Assembly (NCBI GenBank): GCA_943787745.1
Contig: CALSNJ010000001.1
Coordinates: 124,001 to 188,000, forward strand
From: an uncultured Alphaproteobacteria bacterium
Lineage (GTDB): Bacteria; Pseudomonadota; Alphaproteobacteria; UBA6615
Length of the DNA: 64,000 bases
Direction of reading: 5' to 3'
Under the pieces are notes generated by a model. The model worked only from the letters and a program-made list of their open reading frames with translations. It had not been told where the DNA came from and did no database searches. Positions 13,663 to 31,375 of the stretch are shown in pieces. How positions within the stretch are numbered: position 1 is the first letter of the stretch; each line of letters starts with the position of its first letter. Made by a program: the position numbers and the translations under genes.

Positions 13663-13678
13663 ACACCCGATTGGGTGT
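13663..13678. promoter_or_regulatory. hairpin between sulfotransferase and Maf genes
   Basis: ACACCC-GATT-GGGTGT is a perfect 6-bp inverted repeat with a 4-nt spacer in the 108-nt gap before the Maf gene. TTAACC words flank it at 13624 and 13657. It could be an operator or a small mRNA hairpin; the lack of a T-run argues against a terminator. Confidence 0.35.
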
Positions 13679-13700
13679 TCTGAGAATGCGAAAGACGTTC

Positions 13701-15659
13701 ATGAGCGGTATGTCCCTTTTCCAGAAGAATATTGTCTTCCTCCAAACAGCCGTGCCGGCGCTGGCGTCTCTGGCTGGAAAGACAACAGACACGCTAACCA
13801 AAGCCGTGATGGATTCATCCGGCATCGCGGTTGATATCGATCTTGGTGGGGGGCGTCTCTACAACCGCCCGGCTGCAGAGTTCGCGCAGGAGCAGGTTTT
13901 GTCGTGGCTTCGCCAGCCAAACCGTGTGGTGGTCAATCGACCCGAGCCGGAGTCAATGAAGGATGAGGCTGGGAAAACGCTTTCCATGCGCCTTTCTGAC
14001 GAAGTTGGAGATGACCTTCTTGCATTTCCGCCGACGGATGAATCCGGCCTCCTCGTTGTGATCGGGATAGGGCTGGGTCAGCACATCCGCGATCTTGTGA
14101 AAAAAGTCGGCCCCCGCCATCTGGTGCTGATCGAATCGATTTCCGAGTTCGTCGTCCACAGCCTGCACGCATTGGATTGGGCCTCCCTGATTCAGGATTG
14201 TCAGGCGCAGGGGACAACGGTGGATGTGATCGTGGATTCCGACCCGCGGGTTGTGAAGACCGAGCTGGAAGAATTGATCACCCATTTCGGGGCCTACTGC
14301 GTGGACGGGGCATACTCGTTTCTGCATTTCCAGACCGATGTGAGCCGCGCCATCGCGCGGGACTTTCAGGAACTGGCCGGCATGAAGACGATCCTTCAGG
14401 GATATTATGCTGACGAAAAACTGATGATTGAGAACACGATCGCCAATGTCACCGGCGAGGAGTTCTGGATGATTGATGGGGCGCCGCAAAAGACACATGA
14501 CATGCCAGCTTTCATCATCGGCTCTGGACCTTCGTTGGATGGTGCCCTCGATACCATTCGCGAATGGCAGGATCATGCTGTGATCTTCTGTGCGGGTTCT
14601 GCCTTGCAGAGTTTGCTCGCTGCCGGGATCAAGCCTGATTTCCAGATCGAGAAGGAAAACAACGAACAAACCCGCAAGCGTATGGAGCATATTTTTGAGC
14701 GCCATGGTGCGGGAGCGGACCGATTTGACATCAGCCTTATTGGGTCGGTGACCGTGAAGCCTGCGGTTGTTGATTTGTTCGGGGATACCTTCCTGTTCCA
14801 TCGCGAAATGCTGAGTTCGACACGGATGTTCGGAAAAGGCTTTAACCCGCTTCTTGCGACCGGGCCGTTCTCTGCGAATACAGCGGTTTCGGCGGCTACG
14901 ATTCTGGGGTTCCGGAACATGTACATGTTCGGTTGCGATTGTGGCTCGGTGGATCGGGGACAGCACCATGCCCGCGATACGGTTTACTACACACGTGACG
15001 GTCACACTTCCGGGCATGCCAACTTGCCGCTTCCGGTTCCCGCAAACTTTGGTGGGCAGGCCTGGTCGAACCCTTATTTCCTATGGAGCCGCTGGGTTTT
15101 TGAAAGCATGATTTCGCAGGCTGAGATCTCCGCTGTCAATTGCAGTGATGGCGTGGCGATCCAGGGGGCGACGCCAATCCGGCCAGCCGATTTGGAAATG
15201 CCACGCAATGTTTTGAACAAGGAGAAGGTCCTGAGCGCCTTGAAGAAGTCATGTCTTTATCAGACGCCCGGCTCTTATCTGCAGGGGCAGAACCTGCCTG
15301 ATGTCCTTGACCGGTGGAACAGGTTTGCCGCTGACTTGCGCCAGTTTTGTGCCGAAGTGCTGCCCCAGGCAAAAAGCCTCCATGATTTGGATGGGGCACT
15401 TGCGCGGTTCGTTGAAACCCGCGACCTCACCTATGACGGCATCCTTGTGCCGATAGAGGGTTCGATGCGGGCCATGGTCCCTGTGGGTGGTTACTTCCTT
15501 AATCGTGTTGCCGAACCGCAGGATCGCGCGCGGCTTCTTGATGTGTTCCGGGATGTGTTCGACGAAGAGGTCGAGCGCATGTTGGCTGATTGCACGGCCA
15601 TGCTCGCGGGCATCGCAGCAGGCCACGGGGATTCCAGAGAAATTCAGGTTGCGAGTTGA
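13701..15659 (+). CDS. Maf (motility accessory factor)/DUF115 glycosyltransferase
   Basis: This protein is about 652 residues from ATG 13701; ATGs at 13686 and 13710 are alternatives. The diagnostic DUF115 block is AFIIGSGPSLDGALDTI (about residues 266-282), followed by FCAGSALQSLLAAGIKPDF, and later GCDCGSVDRGQHHA. Maf proteins transfer nonulosonic acids such as pseudaminic or legionaminic acid onto flagellin Ser/Thr. The epimerase and methyltransferase downstream fit a sugar-supply role. No flagellin gene is in the window, so flagellin as target is inferred from family knowledge. Confidence 0.88.
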   Translation: MSGMSLFQKNIVFLQTAVPALASLAGKTTDTLTKAVMDSSGIAVDIDLGGGRLYNRPAAEFAQEQVLSWLRQPNRVVVNRPEPESMKDEAGKTLSMRLSDEVGDDLLAFPPTDESGLLVVIGIGLGQHIRDLVKKVGPRHLVLIESISEFVVHSLHALDWASLIQDCQAQGTTVDVIVDSDPRVVKTELEELITHFGAYCVDGAYSFLHFQTDVSRAIARDFQELAGMKTILQGYYADEKLMIENTIANVTGEEFWMIDGAPQKTHDMPAFIIGSGPSLDGALDTIREWQDHAVIFCAGSALQSLLAAGIKPDFQIEKENNEQTRKRMEHIFERHGAGADRFDISLIGSVTVKPAVVDLFGDTFLFHREMLSSTRMFGKGFNPLLATGPFSANTAVSAATILGFRNMYMFGCDCGSVDRGQHHARDTVYYTRDGHTSGHANLPLPVPANFGGQAWSNPYFLWSRWVFESMISQAEISAVNCSDGVAIQGATPIRPADLEMPRNVLNKEKVLSALKKSCLYQTPGSYLQGQNLPDVLDRWNRFAADLRQFCAEVLPQAKSLHDLDGALARFVETRDLTYDGILVPIEGSMRAMVPVGGYFLNRVAEPQDRARLLDVFRDVFDEEVERMLADCTAMLAGIAAGHGDSREIQVAS

Positions 15660-15698
15660 ACGTCGTCATAAACATCCCGCAGTACCAAGGAGGGTCAA

Positions 15699-16901
15699 TT
15701 GTCTGACCGCAAAATCCAAAAAGGTGTCCGGAAGCTCAATGGCAGTCCGGCCATTCGAAAGGTCTGCGTGGTCGTGAACAGTCGCGCCAACTACGCCCGG
15801 ATCAAGTCCGTGATGCGCGCCATTCAGCGTCACAACCGCCTGGAACTCCAGCTTGTGGTAGGGGCTTCTGCGCTGCTCTACCGCTATGGCAATGTTGTGG
15901 ATCTGATCCGCGCAGATGGTTTTGAGCCATCCTCGGTCGTATACTCCATCGTGGAGGGTGAAAACCCGACCACCATGGCGAAGTCGACAGGCATGGGGAT
16001 CATTGAACTGTCGTCACAGTTTGAGAATCTGCAGCCCGATATTGTTCTGACGGTGGCCGACCGGTTTGAGACCATGGCGACGGCCATCGCGGCGAGCTAC
16101 ATGAACATTCCGCTGGCGCATACCCAAGGCGGTGAGGTGACAGGCTCCATCGATGAAAGCGTGCGCCATGCCATTACCAAGCTGGCGCATATTCATTTCC
16201 CGGCGACCGAACGCGCCCATGACTATGTGGTGCGAATGGGTGAAGCGCCCGACACGGTACATCTGACAGGATGCCCGGCGATTGATCTTCTGGTGGAATC
16301 GGATTTGTCGCTCACACCCGATTTGTTCAGTGAGGATCAAGGCACCGGTGCACAGCTGGACCCGTCACGGCCCTATATTGTGGTCCTGCAGCATCCCGTG
16401 ACCACGGAGTATGGGTCAGGTTTTGAGCAGGTAAGCGCAACGCTCGATGCGGTGGACCGGTTGGGCATGCAGACCGTCTGGTTGTGGCCAAATGTCGATG
16501 CCGGCTCGGACGATGTGTCCAAAGGTCTGCGCATGTATCGCGAGGACAATCCCGAGGCCAATGTCCATTTCTATCGCAACTTCCCGGCTGAAGATTACGC
16601 ACGACTGATCAACAATTCGGCTGCGCTCGTTGGCAATTCCAGTTCTGCGTTGCGGGAAGGTGCATATCTTGGTGTCCCGGCGGTCAATGTGGGAACGCGC
16701 CAGACCGGCCGCGAGCACGCCGAGAATGTGCGCCACGCCGGATATGACGGCAAGGAAATCGAACGCACGGTCCGCGCGCAGATGGAGCACGGGCGCTACG
16801 GTCGCTCGGAGATGTTCGGCGATGGTCATGCCGGCGTCAGGATTGCCAATCATCTGGCGGAAAATGAAATCGTTGTTCAGAAGCGCTTGGCGTACCAATG
16901 A
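15699..16901 (+). CDS. neuC: UDP-N-acetylglucosamine 2-epimerase, hydrolysing (NeuC-like)
   Basis: This 400-residue enzyme starts at TTG 15699, supported by a consensus AAGGAGG at 15687-15693. The two-domain GT-B-like fold is evident: early VVVNSRANYARI, catalytic region DIVLTVADRFE then HTQGGEVTGSIDESVRHAI, and C-terminal ALVGNSSSALREGAYLG for nucleotide binding. NeuC enzymes turn UDP-GlcNAc or its derivatives into ManNAc-type sugars for sialic/legionaminic acid synthesis. No neuB or neuA lies in the window, so the downstream pathway must be elsewhere or the product is different. Its stop overlaps the methyltransferase start. Confidence 0.87.
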   Translation: MSDRKIQKGVRKLNGSPAIRKVCVVVNSRANYARIKSVMRAIQRHNRLELQLVVGASALLYRYGNVVDLIRADGFEPSSVVYSIVEGENPTTMAKSTGMGIIELSSQFENLQPDIVLTVADRFETMATAIAASYMNIPLAHTQGGEVTGSIDESVRHAITKLAHIHFPATERAHDYVVRMGEAPDTVHLTGCPAIDLLVESDLSLTPDLFSEDQGTGAQLDPSRPYIVVLQHPVTTEYGSGFEQVSATLDAVDRLGMQTVWLWPNVDAGSDDVSKGLRMYREDNPEANVHFYRNFPAEDYARLINNSAALVGNSSSALREGAYLGVPAVNVGTRQTGREHAENVRHAGYDGKEIERTVRAQMEHGRYGRSEMFGDGHAGVRIANHLAENEIVVQKRLAYQ

Positions 16902-23406: not shown

Positions 23407-23724
23407 ATGGTGGATAAACTCACAACTGATATTGGCGGAGATTCCGCCGGTCCGGTCCCACAGGAGGACCGTGACCAGCTCTTTTGGGAGAAGCAAATGA
23501 TCGCGGCCTTCAACCTGCTTCAGGTGAAGGGCGTTGTCGTCACCGATGAATTCCGACGTACGGTCGAGGAAATGCCAGCAGATTATTATGCCAATTCGAC
23601 ATTCTATGGCCGCCGTCTGGACGGCATGGTGCGCTTGCTGATCGAGAAAGGCGTCATTGACGCTGATACAATCGAGGCGCGCACGCGGGAAATTCTTGAA
23701 TCCGGGACCCGTGACCATGTCTGA
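23407..23724 (+). CDS. nitrile hydratase beta N-terminal-like subunit (SCNase beta-like)
   Basis: This 105-residue protein has GGAGG before the ATG. It matches the N-terminal helical domain of nitrile hydratase beta: FWEKQMIAAFNLLQVKGVV, then EFRRTVEEMPADYYANSTFY, then a GVI(D)ADTIEARTREIL helix. In two-subunit nitrile hydratases this is fused to the SH3-like barrel. Here it is a separate gene, as in the three-subunit thiocyanate hydrolase and toyocamycin nitrile hydratase. Its end overlaps the next gene by 8 nt. Confidence 0.82.
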   Translation: MVDKLTTDIGGDSAGPVPQEDRDQLFWEKQMIAAFNLLQVKGVVVTDEFRRTVEEMPADYYANSTFYGRRLDGMVRLLIEKGVIDADTIEARTREILESGTRDHV

Positions 23725-24022
23725 GGCGGAACCAAGCTATGCGGTCGGGGACCGGGTGCGAATCCTGGATATTGGCAAGCCCGGGCATGTCCGCACGCCG
23801 ACCTATATCCGTCACAAGGTCGGCACCATTGAGCGGTTTTGCGGGATGTTCGAAAATCCCGAGGACAAGGCCTATGGGCGTTGGGGGTTACCGCCGATCC
23901 CGCTGTATCGCGTGCAGTTGAAGCAGGACGATATCTGGCCGGACTATGATGGTGCGCCGGGCGATGTCCTCGAGATTGAAATTTATGACCATTGGCTGGC
24001 ACCTGCCGGGGAGACAACCTGA
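23717..24022 (+). CDS. nitrile hydratase beta C-terminal-like (SH3-like) subunit
   Basis: This 101-residue protein starts at ATG 23717, inside the end of the preceding gene; GTG 23711 is an alternative. The SH3-like barrel that closes the nitrile hydratase beta subunit is clear: YAVGDRVRILDIGKPGHVRT, then the conserved GTIERFCG and YRVQLKQDDIW, and a C-terminal DVLEIEIYDHWL. It corresponds to the alpha subunit of thiocyanate hydrolase. Its stop shares a base with the next start (TGATG), so the three subunits are translationally coupled. Confidence 0.85.
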   Translation: MSEAEPSYAVGDRVRILDIGKPGHVRTPTYIRHKVGTIERFCGMFENPEDKAYGRWGLPPIPLYRVQLKQDDIWPDYDGAPGDVLEIEIYDHWLAPAGETT

Positions 24023-24654
24023 TGAGCGACCATGACCACGATCATGATGATCACGCGCCGACTCGCGAAGACGATGACCTTGAGCTGACCGAGGGAGAGG
24101 CGCGTTTCCTGGCTCTCAAGAGCCTGCTGATTGAAGGCGGTGTCATGACCGCAGATGAAATCCGGGCGCGGATGGAATTCAACGAGCGCGGCAGCCCGCA
24201 TCAGGCGGCTCGCATGATCGCCCGGGCCTGGGTCGATCCGGACTACAAGGCACGTATGCTGGCCGACACAAAATCGGCCGCTGCAGAATTGGGGATCGAG
24301 GCCACCGAAGCGGCGTTGGTCACAATTGAGAACACGCCCGAGCGGCACAACATGGTTGTCTGCACGCTATGCTCCTGCTACCCGCGCTCGCTGCTGGGAG
24401 AGCCGCCGGCGTTCTATGTCAGCAAGGCCTATCGGTCGCGGGCCGTGCGAGAGCCACGCAAGGTGTTGCGGGAGTTTGGCGTGGATATTCCAGACGCGGT
24501 TGATATCGCCGTTCACGACAGCAATGCCGACCTGCGCTACGTGATCATGCCCATGCGCCCGCAAGGGACCGAGGGCATGAGCGAAGAGGAGCTCGCCGCC
24601 CTGATCACACGTGACAGCGTGGTTGGTTGTGCGTTGCCTGTCGAGCCGGCCTGA
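24022..24654 (+). CDS. cobalt-type nitrile hydratase alpha / thiocyanate hydrolase gamma-like subunit
   Basis: This 210-residue catalytic subunit carries the metal claw VVCTLCSCYPRSLLG with C114, C117 and C119. Thr at the second position of C-T-L-C-S-C is the cobalt-type signature; iron-type enzymes have Ser. In the family the second and third cysteines are oxidised to sulfinic and sulfenic acid. The N-terminus MSDHDHDHDDH may hold or deliver metal. The C-terminus ALITRDSVVGCA matches the family. Substrate (nitrile, thiocyanate or other) cannot be decided. No separate activator gene is seen next to it. Confidence 0.88.
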   Translation: MSDHDHDHDDHAPTREDDDLELTEGEARFLALKSLLIEGGVMTADEIRARMEFNERGSPHQAARMIARAWVDPDYKARMLADTKSAAAELGIEATEAALVTIENTPERHNMVVCTLCSCYPRSLLGEPPAFYVSKAYRSRAVREPRKVLREFGVDIPDAVDIAVHDSNADLRYVIMPMRPQGTEGMSEEELAALITRDSVVGCALPVEPA

Positions 24655-24663
24655 TCTCGTTCT

Positions 24664-25359
24664 ATGGCAGCGATTGCTCTCTATGATCTCGTCGGGGCAG
24701 ACGACCGCCGTTTCTCCAGCCATTGTTGGCGAATTCGTCCGGCGCTGGCCCATAAGGGTCTCAATTTTGAAACGGTCCCGACACCCTTCACCGGCATTCC
24801 TGCCATAGGTGACGGGTCTTTTCCCACGCTTCCCGTCATCCGTGACGGCGAAACCTGGGTTTGCGATAGCGGGGTGATCGCCGCGTATCTGGAGGCGACT
24901 TATCCGGACCGGCCATCTCTTTTCGGTGGCTCTGCAGGGCAAGCCCTGACGCAGTTTGTCAGTCACTGGTGGCGCGGGCGCATGCATCTGTTCGTGATGC
25001 CCATGATCCTGCAGGACATTCACAGCCATCTTGTGCCCGAAGATCAGGACTGGTTTGCCGAAAGCCGCAAGAAGCGCTTCGGGAAATCCATCGCCGAACT
25101 CGCCGAGGGGCGTGAAGAACGCCGCGTCGAGTTTCGGACACGGCTCGAACCTCTGCGTCAGATGTTGGGGGGTCAGCCTTTTCTGGGTGGCGAGACCGCG
25201 CTTTATGCGGACTACCTGGTGATGGGCACGTTTATCTGGGCCCGCAAGATGAGCCCCTTTGCGTTGGTCGAAGCCGGCGACCCGGTGCATGACTGGATGA
25301 ACCGGTGTCTGGATCTTTATGACGGAATGGCCCGGTCGGGCCCCGGATTTGATTGGTAG
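24664..25359 (+). CDS. glutathione S-transferase family protein (beta-etherase-like)
   Basis: This 231-residue protein has an N-terminal thioredoxin fold (ALYDLVGADDRRFSSHCWRIRPALAHKG), a cis-Pro region FPTLPVIRDGETWVCDSGVI that binds glutathione, and an all-helical C-terminal domain. The SSHCWRIRPAL pattern is reminiscent of LigE/LigF-type beta-etherase GSTs. It starts 9 nt after the nitrile hydratase alpha stop on the same strand, so it is likely in the same operon. The electrophile it acts on is unknown. Confidence 0.8.
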   Translation: MAAIALYDLVGADDRRFSSHCWRIRPALAHKGLNFETVPTPFTGIPAIGDGSFPTLPVIRDGETWVCDSGVIAAYLEATYPDRPSLFGGSAGQALTQFVSHWWRGRMHLFVMPMILQDIHSHLVPEDQDWFAESRKKRFGKSIAELAEGREERRVEFRTRLEPLRQMLGGQPFLGGETALYADYLVMGTFIWARKMSPFALVEAGDPVHDWMNRCLDLYDGMARSGPGFDW

Positions 25360-25508: not shown

Positions 25509-26795
25509 ATGCCAACCACGCACCCCGAGACGCTTGCGCTCCACGCTGGACACCGCGCCGACCCCACAACCGGGTCCGTGGCGGTGCCGATCCATCAGAC
25601 CACCAGTTATCAGTTCCGCGACACCGAACATGCGGGCAACCTTTTTGCGCTGGCGGAACTCGGCAATATCTACACCCGGATCATGAACCCCACGGTGGAT
25701 GTTCTCGAACAACGTCTCGCGGCGATCGAGGGCGGCGTTGCCGCACTGGGTCTGTCCTCGGGGCAGTCGGCCTCCATGTTCTCGATCTTGAATATCGCGC
25801 GGGCCGGTGACAACTTCGTCTGCTCAACCGATATTTATGGTGGTACCTGGAACCTGTTCAAGAACACCATGCGTGACATGGGCATCGAGGCACGTTTCGT
25901 GGACCCGGCCGATCCGGAGGGCTTTCGTGCGGCCACCGATGACAAGACGCGCGCTTACTATGCCGAGACGCTGCCGAACCCGAAGCTGCAGGTGTTCCCG
26001 ATCGCCGAAGTCGCGGCGATCGGTCGTGAACTGGGCGTTCCACTGATCATGGACAACACGGCAGCGCCGCTGCTGTGCCGTCCGTTCGATCATGGTGCCG
26101 CCATTGTCATGTACTCGACCACCAAATATATCGGCGGGCACGGCACTTCGATCGGCGGCATGCTGATCGATGGCGGCAACTTTGACTGGGAAGCTCACGC
26201 CGACCGGTTCCCGATGCTCAATGAACCAGACCCGAGCTATCACGGCGCGGTCTGGACCGAGGCGGTCAAACCCCTTGGGCCTATTGCCTATATCATCAAG
26301 GCACGTGTCACCCTGTTGCGTGACATCGGCGCCGCCATGTCACCCCAGAATGCCTTCCAGTTTATTCAGGGGCTGGAGACATTGCCGTTGCGCATGGAGC
26401 GACATTGCGAAAATGCGACCAAAGTTTCTGAGTTTCTCAATGGTCATGACAAAGTTGAACGGGTGATATATCCGGGCCTGATGGACGGCGAAGCGCGCAA
26501 GCGTGCTGATGCACATCTCAGTGGTGGCTACAGTGGCCTGGTGGGTATGGAAGTGAAGGGCGGCCTCGAAGCGGGCAAGAAGTTCATCGATTCCCTCGAG
26601 CTTCTCTACCATGTTGCCAATATTGGGGATGCACGTTCGCTGGCCATTCATCCGGCTTCGACCACCCATAGCCAGCTGGATGCAGAAGAGCTTCTTCAGG
26701 CCGGCGTCACCCCGGGCTATGTGCGCCTGTCCATTGGCATCGAGCACGCCGACGACATCATCGCGGATATCGATCAGGCCCTGTCCAAGGTCTAG
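25509..26795 (+). CDS. metY: O-acetylhomoserine sulfhydrylase (aminocarboxypropyltransferase)
   Basis: This 428-residue PLP enzyme forms homocysteine from O-acetylhomoserine and sulfide. The Cys/Met metabolism fold is shown by LHAGHRADPTTGSVAVPIHQ, YTRIMNPTVDVLEQRLAAIE, PLIMDNTAAPLL and the Schiff-base lysine K206 in MYSTTKYIGGHG. Length fits MetY. AGGAG precedes ATG 25509; an upstream in-frame start at 25467 is weaker. It lies between the nitrile hydratase/GST genes and the amidase, which may be coincidence or a sulfur link. Confidence 0.92.
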   Translation: MPTTHPETLALHAGHRADPTTGSVAVPIHQTTSYQFRDTEHAGNLFALAELGNIYTRIMNPTVDVLEQRLAAIEGGVAALGLSSGQSASMFSILNIARAGDNFVCSTDIYGGTWNLFKNTMRDMGIEARFVDPADPEGFRAATDDKTRAYYAETLPNPKLQVFPIAEVAAIGRELGVPLIMDNTAAPLLCRPFDHGAAIVMYSTTKYIGGHGTSIGGMLIDGGNFDWEAHADRFPMLNEPDPSYHGAVWTEAVKPLGPIAYIIKARVTLLRDIGAAMSPQNAFQFIQGLETLPLRMERHCENATKVSEFLNGHDKVERVIYPGLMDGEARKRADAHLSGGYSGLVGMEVKGGLEAGKKFIDSLELLYHVANIGDARSLAIHPASTTHSQLDAEELLQAGVTPGYVRLSIGIEHADDIIADIDQALSKV

Positions 26796-27107
26796 TCCCC
26801 GGGCGCGTTCAAACGTGTCATGTCTTCGCAAGTCGGTGTGAAACCCGGTATTGTGTGGCGTCTGTCACCGCGCATGGATTCTCATGGCACGTTCGTCTGG
26901 TCTGTTCCCTTCACCCAAAGGTTGGCTCGCTGCATTGCAGACCGGGTGACGGACAAAAGAAGAGACCTGCTGCCGGAGGGTGATTGCCTTGGCCCGTCCG
27001 GTGGGATCGTGCCGCTGACTATGGAATTTCCACGATAGGTCTCTCTGGCTCTGGATTTTTTGACGATCTATCGACATCATCGGCGCGAAGAAAAACAGGG
27101 AAATGTC
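26796..27107 (+). other. 312-nt gap with no supported gene
   Basis: A 72-codon frame (26820-27038) crosses most of this gap, but its composition and lack of any recognisable motif or ribosome binding site argue against coding. The region probably holds the promoter of the amidase gene. No terminator or repeat is evident. Confidence 0.5.
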
Positions 27108-29423
27108 ATGTCGGAAAAATCCGGAAAGTTTGAAGTTGTCGAGGCGTCCATTGACGACCTTCACAACGCCATTCGCGCGGGTGAAACAACCCTCGTCGAA
27201 GTCGTGCAGGGCTATATCGACCGCGCCCGGGCCTATAACGGCGTGGCCAGCATGCTGGTGACCGAGGACGGACTTCCGGTGCCCGAAGCCACCGGCGTGG
27301 TCCGCGCCGGGGCCGCTTTGAAATTCCCGACCGAGACAATTCCGGTGTCCGACGTGTTGCCCGATCTCGACAAGTACAAGGGGCCGCCGCTCGAATACGG
27401 CCGCATGGAAGCCACCGCCTCCAAACCCGATGTGCAGCAGCAATTCGGCATGATTGCGGGCATTCCCAGGGCCGGTCAGGTCAACGCGCTGTCCACTCTC
27501 AACATTCGCGGCGAACGGTCGGTCACCTGCTGGGGCGATTACGACCGCCATCCTTCCGAGGGGCCGCTTCCCGACGGAGCGCCGCCGGTCTGTGAGATGT
27601 TCCGCCAGTTTCCCGATGCGCTTGAGCGCGCCGCCGAACTCGACGCCGAATTCGGCAGCGATCCCGACCTTGAGGCCCTGCCCATGTATGGCGTGACCTT
27701 CTCCTTCAAGGATCCCTTTGACACCAAAGACATGCGCTCGACCGGTGGCGCCGATGCCGCCTATGACAACGATTTCCCGGCCCGCGATCATGTGCTGGTT
27801 GAACAGTTGCGTGCGAAGGGGGCGATCATTCTCGCCAAGGCCGTGAACACCGAATATAACGGCCGCGCTGGCGACCCCGGCGGGCGGAACCATCCTGACA
27901 AGGTGTTGCCTTCCACGCTCGGCTATCAGCGCGCGACCTGGGGCGGCAATCCGTCCAACCCCTATGACACGACTCGTGCGGCTTCGCTGGGGTCGAGCTC
28001 CGGCTCGGCGTTGTCGGTCAGCACCAACATGGTGATGGCAAGTCTCGGTGAAGAAACCCGGGCGTCATGTCGCGGCCCGTCCAACCACAACTCCGTGGCC
28101 CTCATTCTGCCGCATAAATCGATGATCGGATTTGATGGCGGCGCCATTGGGGCAGACATCTATTGTGACCGGTCGGGTGTGCATGGAAAGTCCCTGCCCG
28201 ACTGCGCAAAAATTCTCGATGCGCTGAAGGATCCCGAAATGGGCTACTACGACCCGCGTGATCCCTATACGACCGTGCCACGCTCCTCGGTGCTCGACAC
28301 ACCTTATGCGTCGCATCTGTCTGACAATGGTGCGCCCGGTGCCCTGAAGGGCGTGCGTCTTGGTGTCGTTCGCGAGTCCATGGTCTATCCGAAGGATTCC
28401 ATGACTGAGAAGCCGATCGTCGATGCGGCCACGGTCGAGATCAAGGAGGTGCTCGGGGCTACGCTGGGCGCCACGCTGGTGGAATCCGGGGACCCCCTCT
28501 GGACGCCCGATCCGGATCTCGAACAGATGGGGACGGATTTCCGGACCGCGCTGACCCGGCTGATCCCGGTCTTTATGCCCGATATTCTGTTTCGACTGGG
28601 GCCGGATGGCACGCCGTTGTTCAAGGAGTTCGAGGCCGCGATTAAGCCGACCGAATTTTTCCCGGGCAAGACCTTCGGCACCGGCACGATGGATTCCATC
28701 GATTACTGCGTGGCCCTGTCCGAAGGCCGGATTGAAGCGCCAGCCAATCTCGATATCGGGACGATCCAGCCGCAGCAGCTTGCCAACACATTCCGGTTTC
28801 ATATCAGCCAGTATCTGATGCGCCGGGCCGAAGACTGGAAGGCAGCGGGCTTTCATGAGGCGCTCGACAACTGGGCCGAACTCAATGCGCGGTCGAAGTT
28901 CTGGGGCGACGACCAGCGCAGCGGCTTCAAGAACTGGGAAGAAACCTCTGATCCGCGCAACGCGCTCGATGGCCGTCAGGGTGTGAATGAGCGCATCATG
29001 CTCCGTGAGTTGCTCCGGCGGGTCGATATGATGGTGCTGATCGAAAACAAGCTGGACGGCTTCGTGCGGCTGCACACACCATGGCCGCCGGGAATCATCG
29101 GTGGACCGCTGCAATACGACACGCCCAACAATCTCCGGAATGAGAGTCTCTACGGCCCGAATGCCGGACTGACCGAGATTCTGGTGCCGGCAGGGTATGT
29201 CACGACGGCCTACGACCCGGTCTACAAACTAAATGCTGATGGCACGAAATACGTTTCCGCGCCGTCTCATGAACCGACGATGATCGATGGGCCGGGCCTG
29301 CCGTTCTCGCTGGTCTTCCGGTCCGAACCGGGAACGGAAGACAGTCTGGTGCGGATTGCCTCGACCTATGAGGCGGCGTCACGACGTCGTGTCTCACCGC
29401 CGGATTTCGGGCCGCTTTGTTAA
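27108..29423 (+). CDS. amidase-signature family protein, long and divergent
   Basis: This 771-residue protein is far longer than typical 450-550-residue amidases. Catalytic residues can be placed as K201 (FSFKDPFDT), cis-Ser S296 (LGSSSGSA) and nucleophile S320 (ETRASCRGPS). The 24-residue spacing between the serines is canonical, but the usual DTGGSIR is replaced by ETRASCR. A GDPGGRNHPDKV insertion and long N- and C-terminal regions are extra. Amidases hydrolyse amides to acids, the step after nitrile hydratase. An AGGGA site precedes ATG 27108. No signal peptide is seen. Confidence 0.85.
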   Translation: MSEKSGKFEVVEASIDDLHNAIRAGETTLVEVVQGYIDRARAYNGVASMLVTEDGLPVPEATGVVRAGAALKFPTETIPVSDVLPDLDKYKGPPLEYGRMEATASKPDVQQQFGMIAGIPRAGQVNALSTLNIRGERSVTCWGDYDRHPSEGPLPDGAPPVCEMFRQFPDALERAAELDAEFGSDPDLEALPMYGVTFSFKDPFDTKDMRSTGGADAAYDNDFPARDHVLVEQLRAKGAIILAKAVNTEYNGRAGDPGGRNHPDKVLPSTLGYQRATWGGNPSNPYDTTRAASLGSSSGSALSVSTNMVMASLGEETRASCRGPSNHNSVALILPHKSMIGFDGGAIGADIYCDRSGVHGKSLPDCAKILDALKDPEMGYYDPRDPYTTVPRSSVLDTPYASHLSDNGAPGALKGVRLGVVRESMVYPKDSMTEKPIVDAATVEIKEVLGATLGATLVESGDPLWTPDPDLEQMGTDFRTALTRLIPVFMPDILFRLGPDGTPLFKEFEAAIKPTEFFPGKTFGTGTMDSIDYCVALSEGRIEAPANLDIGTIQPQQLANTFRFHISQYLMRRAEDWKAAGFHEALDNWAELNARSKFWGDDQRSGFKNWEETSDPRNALDGRQGVNERIMLRELLRRVDMMVLIENKLDGFVRLHTPWPPGIIGGPLQYDTPNNLRNESLYGPNAGLTEILVPAGYVTTAYDPVYKLNADGTKYVSAPSHEPTMIDGPGLPFSLVFRSEPGTEDSLVRIASTYEAASRRRVSPPDFGPLC

Positions 29424-29515
29424 GGCCTGCTGGGTTGAAGCAGTCGTGCCCGTTTTGACCTCACGCGGGTGACGCCTGTCTGGCAGTATGTGTGTTGCAG
29501 AATAGGGAACAGACC

Positions 29516-30865
29516 ATGGTCGCCACTCGGCAGCTTCACCTCGCGGCGTTCATGCGCCCGATCAGCATCCACACCGGCGCCTGGCGTTACCCGGGCGGGA
29601 TGCCGGATGCCAATTTCAACTTCCGGGCGATTGTGAAATTTGCCCAGCGGCTTGAGGAGGCGCGTTTTGACGCGTTTTTCATGGCCGACCATCTGGCGAT
29701 GCTGAACATGCCGATGGATGCGCTCAAACGCAGCGCAACGGCCACTTCCTTTGAGCCATTCACGCTATTGTCGGCGCTTTCCATGGCAACGGAAAACCTG
29801 GGCTTGATCGCAACCGGTTCGACGTCCTTTGACGAGCCGTTTCATGTTGCGCGCCGGTTTGCCTCGCTCGATCACATTTCCGAAGGGCGGGCGGGCTGGA
29901 ACATCGTCACCACATCCAATCCCGATGCGGCAAAGAATTTCGGGCTGGAGGATCATCTCGACCATGCGGACCGGTACCGTCGCGCACGTGAGTTCTATGA
30001 TGTGGTGACCGGTCTTTGGGACAGCTGGGCTGATGATGCGTTCGTTCGTGATGTGGACACCGGCGTCTTTTTTGATCCTGAAAAACTCCACACTCTCGAT
30101 CACAAGGGTGAGTTCTTTTCCGTGCGGGGTCCGCTGCACGTGGCCCGGCCGGCGCAGGGCTGGCCGGTCATTGTCCAGGCCGGCGGATCGGACGCCGGGC
30201 GCCAGTTGGCTGCCGAAACCGCCGAGGCGATTTTCGCCGCGCAGCGCACGCTCGAGGACGGGAAAGAATTCTACGCGGATGTGAAAGGACGGATGAAGGT
30301 GCTTGGCCGCAATCCCGATCATCTGAAAATTCTACCCGCCTGCCTGGTGGTGGTCGGTGACACTGTGGAGGAGGCGCGCGAAAAGCGGGCGATGCTCGAT
30401 TCCAAGGTGCATCTCGACAGCGCCATTGCATCACTGTCCATTGCACTGGGTACGGACGCCTCAAAATTTGACCTCGATGGACCGTTGCCTGAGATCCCGG
30501 AAACCAATGCGTCCAAAAGCGGACGCGACCGGGCCGTTCGCATGGCGGAACAGGACAGCCTGACCGTCCGTCAGCTGGCCCAGCGCATGGGGGGCTATTC
30601 GGGTTTGGCGCTGGTCGGCACGGCCGAGACCATTGCAGACCAGATGGAAGAGTGGATTGACGCGGAGGCCAGCGATGGCTTCACAATCATGTTCCCGTTT
30701 CTGCCGGAAGGGCTGGATTTGTTCGTAGACCGGGTGACACCCGAGCTTCAAAGGCGCGGATTGCTGCGCCGGGAATACGAAGGCAAGACCTTGCGCGAAA
30801 ACCTTGGTTTGCCGCGTCCCGAGAATCGCTTCTTTGCGACAGCCTCAGATCAGGCGGCGCAATAG
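29516..30865 (+). CDS. LLM-class FMNH2-dependent monooxygenase (NtaA/SnaA/DszA group)
   Basis: This 449-residue TIM-barrel flavin monooxygenase begins with HLAAFMRPISIHTGAWRYPG, the strongly conserved opening of NtaA/SnaA/DszA proteins. HISEGRAGWNIVTTSNPDAA binds flavin phosphate and VIVQAGGSDAGRQLA follows. These enzymes use free FMNH2 and O2 to cleave C-N or C-S bonds in chelators or sulfur heterocycles. They need a partner flavin reductase, which is encoded convergently at 30866. It follows the amidase by 92 nt. Confidence 0.9.
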   Translation: MVATRQLHLAAFMRPISIHTGAWRYPGGMPDANFNFRAIVKFAQRLEEARFDAFFMADHLAMLNMPMDALKRSATATSFEPFTLLSALSMATENLGLIATGSTSFDEPFHVARRFASLDHISEGRAGWNIVTTSNPDAAKNFGLEDHLDHADRYRRAREFYDVVTGLWDSWADDAFVRDVDTGVFFDPEKLHTLDHKGEFFSVRGPLHVARPAQGWPVIVQAGGSDAGRQLAAETAEAIFAAQRTLEDGKEFYADVKGRMKVLGRNPDHLKILPACLVVVGDTVEEAREKRAMLDSKVHLDSAIASLSIALGTDASKFDLDGPLPEIPETNASKSGRDRAVRMAEQDSLTVRQLAQRMGGYSGLALVGTAETIADQMEEWIDAEASDGFTIMFPFLPEGLDLFVDRVTPELQRRGLLRREYEGKTLRENLGLPRPENRFFATASDQAAQ

Positions 30866-31375
30866 TCAGTCGAGATAGCCGCCCCGGAAATAGACGAGCG
30901 GGTCGGCATCCTTGTTGCCTGCAATGGCAACGACACGGCCGAGCGCGATGATCGTGCCGTGGCGTTCGATGGTTTCTTCCAGCTTGCAATCCATGACCCC
31001 AACGGCGTCGTTGAATGTTGGGGCACCTGTTGCAAGATAGCCCCAGCGTTCCGTCTGGAACCGGGCGGGACCTTTGACGTCGGTCTTCCCTGAGAACATA
31101 TCGACCACGTCTTCGGTACCTTTCGGCAGGTAGTTGATCGCAAAATGCGCGGAATCGCGAATAGCGCCGAGCGCGGATGTTTTTGCGTCGATCGAGACGA
31201 GCATGGTGGGCGGACTGGCGCAGACATGGGTCGCAGAAAGACCGAGAAAGCCCGCCGGCCCGGCGCTGCCGCGTGCCGTGACAATTGTTGCTGCGATCGC
31301 GCGCTGCCCGACGGCACCCCAGAATGCGCCGATATCGATATCGGCGTTTCCCACGCCCGAGCCTTCACTGCCCAT
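30866..31375 (-). CDS. flavin reductase family protein
   Basis: This 169-residue protein belongs to the NtaB/HpaC split-barrel family. TIVTARGSAGPAGFLGLSAT and the conserved PPTMLVSIDAKTSA with FAINYLPKGTEDV mark the FMN-binding barrel, and the C-terminus PLVYFRGGYLD is typical. AGGAG lies upstream of ATG 31375. It most likely supplies FMNH2 to the monooxygenase whose gene ends at the adjoining base on the other strand. The convergent rather than operonic arrangement is slightly unusual. Confidence 0.9.
   Translation of the reverse strand: MGSEGSGVGNADIDIGAFWGAVGQRAIAATIVTARGSAGPAGFLGLSATHVCASPPTMLVSIDAKTSALGAIRDSAHFAINYLPKGTEDVVDMFSGKTDVKGPARFQTERWGYLATGAPTFNDAVGVMDCKLEETIERHGTIIALGRVVAIAGNKDADPLVYFRGGYLD

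Follow-up and report, generated by a model that had tools for sequence, protein, structure and literature searches.

A three-gene enzyme of the nitrile hydratase family in an uncultured alphaproteobacterium, and the apparently uncharacterised branch to which it belongs

Genes at the locus

Three overlapping genes at positions 23407–24654 of the window (the whole 64,000-nucleotide stretch of DNA that was analysed) encode proteins related to the subunits of nitrile hydratase (NHase).

23407..23724, + strand: betaN subunit (P0001), a free beta N-terminal domain of 105 aa; PF21006, 3.3e-14; mapped against 3qxe_B and 2dd4_B
23717..24022, + strand: betaC or SH3-like subunit (P0002), 101 aa; PF02211, 4.9e-20
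24022..24654, + strand: alpha subunit (P0003), 210 aa; PF02979, 3.9e-75

The betaN and betaC genes overlap by 8 nt, betaC and alpha by 1 nt (TGATG), and a GGAGG motif lies upstream of the betaN start. The positions and lengths are exactly those given for three separate, overlapping genes in a preliminary description of this DNA. All three domains scored above the gathering cut-offs in a Pfam profile search, and PDB searches with each of the proteins matched chains of NHases and of thiocyanate hydrolase (SCNase). The alpha subunit begins with MSDHDHDHDDH and carries the claw C114-T-L-C-S-C119, and CTLCSC marks it as being of the cobalt type, as had been proposed.

When the three genes are compared with orthologues from the same genus (the alpha of the third relative being left out of the set), dN/dS is approximately 0.02–0.08, indicating strong purifying selection. 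The split is also kept in the orthologues. These values therefore rule out both a chance arrangement and an ordinary beta gene that has been frameshifted by an artefact.

P0003 scores 241.2 bits against TIGR01323 (ordinary NHase alpha), under the cut-off of 249.85, and 198.9 bits against TIGR03887 (SCNase), under the cut-off of 291.45.

The source genome contains three NHase-family loci. One is the window set. A second contig (C2) has another split set of the type described below as R-type, beside genes for glutaminyl-tRNA synthetase, an extradiol dioxygenase-like protein and an M23 peptidase, and a third contig (C3) has an ordinary alpha-beta-activator set. An alpha resembling P0003 occurs in 19 of 24 genomes of the bacterial family, and a search at the level of the order spanned these 24 genomes as well. 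Four more genomes of the genus, and the sister genus too, carry orthologues of the window locus with 84–96% identity, so that inheritance of the cluster is vertical there. Elsewhere in the window (13671–16901), a Maf-type glycosyltransferase gene is followed by one of the UDP-GlcNAc 2-epimerase family, as in flagellin glycosylation clusters.

The R-type branch

A comparison set of 80 relatives was assembled from public genomes, plasmid records and a phylum sample. The residue that follows CTLCSCYP divides the family: it is Trp in ordinary NHases and Arg in a second group, here called R-type (CTLCSCYPR). In P0003 this is R122 (codon 24385–24387). The division is matched by gene layout. In the 38 R-type loci (Arg, with one Lys) betaN and betaC are always apart, or betaN is fused to alpha, whereas in Trp-type loci the beta subunit is nearly always encoded by one fused gene.

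In the alpha tree, a single branch with support 100/98 parts 51 Trp rows from 38 Arg/Lys rows. The same branch has support 100/100 and a length of 0.7 in a tree of betaN, betaC and alpha joined, from which the trait residue had been masked. Since the R-type enzymes form one branch, the traits linked to it represent one evolutionary event, and not many independent ones. R-type rows come from four phyla (Pseudomonadota, Chloroflexota, Actinomycetota and Cyanobacteriota), and fall both above and below the TIGR01323 cut-off when P0003 is set aside. The window enzyme belongs to a subclade (P0003, L009–L013 and L108) with support 100/99 in the joined tree. The alpha phylogeny that had been suggested as a check puts P0003 outside any characterised clade, in a tree that included SCNase and was built without ToyJ.

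The branch is large, widespread and apparently uncharacterised. A literature search, with subscription papers mostly outside its scope, found no description of it, and a search for NHases with SH3-like domains returned nothing; the literature covers NHase gene orders, SCNase and activators. In public genomes the split layout is common, and is annotated as an ‘SH3-like domain-containing protein’ beside nthA. The preliminary description had likened the three-part layout to SCNase, which is correct, and had confined it to SCNase and the toyocamycin enzyme, which is not, as Trp-type enzymes have it too. Trp-type NHases with a split beta and an adjacent activator are found at L164, L165 and L166, from the same bacterial family, and at L098. 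A split beta by itself is not special.

Some loci depart from these layouts. In Roseomonadaceae and two MAGs (L022, L024, L025, L027, L029 and L041) the betaN domain is fused ahead of alpha. A deeper clade (L085, L086 and L087, from Actinomycetota, Verrucomicrobiota and a deltaproteobacterial MAG) has alpha followed by betaC, with no recognisable betaN, His or Tyr after the claw, and a long N-terminal extension on two of the alphas. On a plasmid of Planktothrix agardhii (L120; NZ_LR882951.1, 2328–9916), an R-type split NHase ends a biosynthetic-looking run of genes for a methyltransferase, a TauD dioxygenase, a NADAR protein, a GST and asparagine synthase, with an aminotransferase nearby. The MAGs behind L016, L019, L076 and L079 carry titles (such as Klebsiella pneumoniae, Bordetella parapertussis and Bifidobacterium breve) that are odd given their gene content; these bins are probably contaminated or wrongly assigned.

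Relation to known three-gene enzymes

SCNase was represented in the tree and alignments by the chains of PDB 2dd4 (Thiobacillus thioparus), obtained from the PDB searches. It lies on the R side of the joined tree, next to a subclade of plasmid-borne enzymes (L119 and L121–L125; support 97/93). The SCNase branch is long, and AU tests did not reject two other placements of it, one with the window subclade (p 0.22) and one with the Trp side (p 0.12). No genome in the phylum sample scored above the TIGR03887 cut-off.

SCNase and the window enzyme have much in common: three subunits corresponding to betaN, betaC and alpha, the claw CTLCSC with Arg after CTLCSCYP, a His/Asp-rich alpha N-terminus, and RT in betaC where ordinary NHases have RL. 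The gamma subunit of SCNase (2dd4_C) reads CTLCSCYPR, with the Arg at position 136; PDB 3vyg_C has Trp there and is the R136W form. GammaArg136 and betaArg90 are reported to set the selectivity of SCNase.

The plasmid enzymes come from Rhizobium, Agrobacterium, Microvirga, Polymorphobacter and Streptomyces. Like the window enzyme they are R-type, encoded by three genes and without an activator nearby. They differ in gene order, which is betaC-alpha-betaN in five of the six, and in having Lys at the position of SCNase betaArg90. Most of them adjoin genes for aquaporin, DUF302 and cobalt transporters (CbtAB or HoxN).

Toyocamycin nitrile hydratase (ToyJKL) likewise has a three-gene organisation. 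The one split locus seen on a Streptomyces chromosome (L072) has Leu after the claw. None of the genes identified around the window cluster belongs to 7-deazapurine metabolism.

The active site

The pocket was numbered according to 3qxe_B, together with 3qyh and its His71 change. The two beta residues that contact the claw, which the preliminary description had singled out for checking, are both present in the alignment: R50 of betaN (23554–23556) and R32 of betaC, in the sequence YIRHK (23810–23812), occupy the positions of betaArg52 and betaArg157. Two further betaN residues depart from the usual pattern, namely F66 (23602–23604) at the position of betaTyr68 and R70 (23614–23616) at that of betaTrp72. 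These positions are known in the family to play a part in the choice of substrate.

Every member of the window subclade has the alpha Arg, beta Phe66 and beta Arg70, and betaPhe51 is also mostly kept there (F49 in P0001, Tyr in L011, Leu in L108). Tyr68 and Trp72 are kept in most other R-type enzymes, and outside the subclade nearly every member of the comparison has betaTyr68.

Compared with ordinary cobalt NHases (1ugp, 3qxe and 1v29), the window enzyme has the same domain families, claw and claw-contact Arg residues, and its alpha is clearly homologous over the whole length. In contrast, its beta subunit is divided between two genes, both pocket Trp residues are replaced by Arg, betaTyr68 is replaced by Phe, and no activator gene is adjacent. 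It differs from SCNase in having F49 in P0001 where SCNase has betaArg90, and Phe and Arg where SCNase keeps Tyr68 and Trp72. The pocket is therefore a hybrid, in that its alpha side is SCNase-like and its second Arg is at a place other than that of SCNase. Given the change of betaTyr68 to Phe, the activity could be low or altered.

Activator and cobalt loading

Subunit-swapping activator proteins have been the explanation for how NHases acquire non-corrin cobalt. A gene for such an activator, recognisable as a second betaN-like gene, adjoins 65 of 72 Trp-type loci and none of the 38 R-type loci (counted for some loci within a flank of 1.5 kb). The window locus follows this pattern, and the absence of an adjacent activator noted in the preliminary description is confirmed; the activator-like gene of this genome sits on C3. 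Eight R-type genomes that are 95–100% complete (G411, G412, G413, G095, G226, G280, G099 and G390) each have a single R-type alpha, and the only PF21006 match in each is the betaN that belongs to that alpha; they thus have no activator paralogue. The same PF21006 search recovered the activator for 17 of 18 Trp-type loci, and at the remaining locus a weak one was seen separately.

Splitting alone fails to explain the absence of the activator, because the Trp-type split NHases of three genomes from the same bacterial family (G398, G399 and G417; L164–L166), with separate betaN and betaC, keep it, as does L098. Nor is P0001 itself an activator of the P14K/NhlE kind. It has the sequence DEFRR, whereas all 18 aligned activators are without the claw-contact Arg (DxxR), and P0001 is therefore a subunit. 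The suggestion that the His/Asp-rich alpha N-terminus substitutes for an activator did not survive comparison, as this feature is not specific: the median number of His is 6 in activator-linked alphas against 7 otherwise.

SCNase differs from the window locus, which has an amidase gene beside it and no adjacent activator, in that an activator, P15K, has been reported for it (cited in PMC3511329). The rule of no activator may therefore not cover the whole of the R side. Within the R-type branch, cobalt would be loaded without a dedicated activator such as those already known. In the source genome, the C3 activator could still serve the window enzyme in trans.

A wider proposal can be made tentatively, although we regard it as doubtful: that R-type enzymes form a separate class with no dedicated activator, in which the free betaN, a homologue of the activator, loads cobalt into alpha and then stays as a catalytic subunit, with the double change of Trp to Arg in the window subclade fitting the pocket to cyanide or a negatively charged nitrile. 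Loading by the betaN protein had already been raised in the preliminary description, and gains interest from these results.

Neighbouring genes

The genes that follow the alpha subunit are:

24664..25359, + strand: glutathione S-transferase (GST)-like gene, GST Pfam families, 9 nt 3' of alpha
25509..26795, + strand: O-acetylhomoserine sulfhydrylase (OAHS)-family gene, TIGR01326, 611.7 bits
27105..29423, + strand: large amidase-signature enzyme, PF01425, 2.8e-24
29516..30865, + strand: NtaA/DmoA-type flavin monooxygenase, TIGR03860, 556.8 bits
30866..31375, - strand: flavin reductase, PF01613, 1.7e-26, probably the partner of the monooxygenase

Synteny within the genus gives the order betaN-betaC-alpha-(GST-OAHS)-amidase-monooxygenase, and then the convergent flavin reductase. 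The GST gene is kept in three loci of the genus (L009, L145 and L147). In G404 (L146) both GST and OAHS are missing from the cluster and the amidase directly adjoins alpha. In G403, the contig carrying L009 ends past OAHS, and a different contig holds the amidase. There are three OAHS-family genes in the source genome, which, with the absence of OAHS from the G404 cluster, weakens its candidacy as a required partner.

The amidase keeps the Lys, cis-Ser and Ser catalytic positions when compared with peptide amidase 5ac3. It is rare, being confined to the bacterial family of the window in samples of 385 genomes of the class and 398 of the phylum, and a search of plasmids gave no homologues. A second lineage that carries it beside an NHase is Aquabacter cavernae (Xanthobacteraceae; L012), where the alpha has 70% identity and the gene directly 3' of it is an amidase with 65% identity over 771 aa; none of the other neighbours is present. 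Near the Aquabacter cluster there is also an asparaginase gene. In another member of the subclade (G095), a divergently transcribed formamidase gene is next door (NF009803, 580 bits, cut-off 406), and a gene for an ABC-type binding protein is also adjacent.

The amidase is not adjacent to the sister-genus orthologue (L148), and four further genomes of the family have it apart from the NHase, either together with the monooxygenase or close to it. The link between amidase and NHase thus rests on two lineages, and the amidase is not an obligate NHase partner, as other genera pair it with the monooxygenase without NHase. A role as a pure partner of the NHase has to be qualified accordingly. Together, the amidase, the NtaA/DmoA-type monooxygenase and the flavin reductase (27105–31375 in the window; L160–L163 elsewhere) make up a family-wide module that is independent of the NHase.

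Substrate

On balance, and with moderate confidence, we consider that betaN, betaC and alpha assemble into a single cobalt-containing member of the NHase superfamily that hydrates a nitrile or cyanide, and that the amidase carries out the following step. In this mechanism alpha would hold Co(III) in the claw CTLCSC, whose oxidised cysteines would be bound by betaN R50 and betaC R32 in the manner of betaArg52 and betaArg157 of NHase. Because alpha R122 and betaN R70 replace two Trp of ordinary NHases, the enzyme would act on a small polar or anionic nitrile, the best guesses being cyanide or a cyano-acid. The downstream amidase would then hydrolyse the amide to the acid and ammonia. Two different amide-hydrolysing enzymes, the amidase and the formamidase, occur beside one subclade, which points to an amide product and hence to a nitrile or cyanide as the substrate.

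An Arg in the pocket would also suit thiocyanate. In a rival account the enzyme converts SCN- to COS and ammonia, with the pocket Arg holding the anion and OAHS using the released sulfide. The three-part layout, the equivalence of the Arg after the claw to SCNase gammaArg136, the position of SCNase on the R side of the tree and the nearby OAHS gene are all consistent with this, and the AU test does not reject a grouping of SCNase with the window subclade (p 0.22). However, P0003 is far under the TIGR03887 cut-off (199 against 291 bits), SCNase betaArg90 is a Phe in P0001, and SCNase groups at 97/93 with the plasmid subclade, which has Lys at that position. Hydrolysis of SCN- would leave the neighbouring amidase and formamidase without a role, and the OAHS gene is one of three copies and is missing from G404. 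We consider thiocyanate hydrolysis unlikely, and the amidase and formamidase neighbours favour the sequence nitrile (or cyanide) to amide to acid over it.

An equally improbable account is that this is an ordinary broad NHase with a beta subunit split by chance, in which the Arg residues are neutral variation and the C3 activator acts in trans. The alpha is indeed near the TIGR01323 cut-off (241 against 250 bits), Trp-type NHases with an activator can also have a split beta, and an activator-like gene is present in the genome. Against this, Arg (with one Lys) and a non-fused beta go together across 38 loci in four phyla, the branch between R and Trp types is deep (length 0.7), and eight near-complete R-type genomes are without an activator paralogue. 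Much less probable still is a cyano-amino acid as substrate (gamma-cyano-aminobutyrate or beta-cyanoalanine), which the OAHS-family enzyme would form from cyanide and whose hydration would give Gln or Asn. OAHS enzymes have a side activity with cyanide, an OAHS gene is in the cluster, a carboxylate could bind the two Arg, and there is the asparaginase gene near the Aquabacter cluster; but OAHS is missing from the G404 and Aquabacter clusters, and asparaginases are common.

Judged from these sequence comparisons, the window enzyme probably hydrates a polar nitrile or cyanide and works without a dedicated activator.

Significance

The R-type branch links NHase and SCNase, and the window subclade is an uncharacterised group within it. 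Public annotation hides the branch under the names ‘SH3-like domain-containing protein’ and ‘nitrile hydratase subunit alpha’. The pattern of Arg for Trp in the pocket ties ordinary NHases to SCNase, and may amount to a simple residue code for the charge of the substrate. NHases are used as catalysts in industry. With a widespread branch of the family now known in which several near-complete genomes are devoid of any activator gene, the subunit-swapping model of cobalt loading becomes directly testable.
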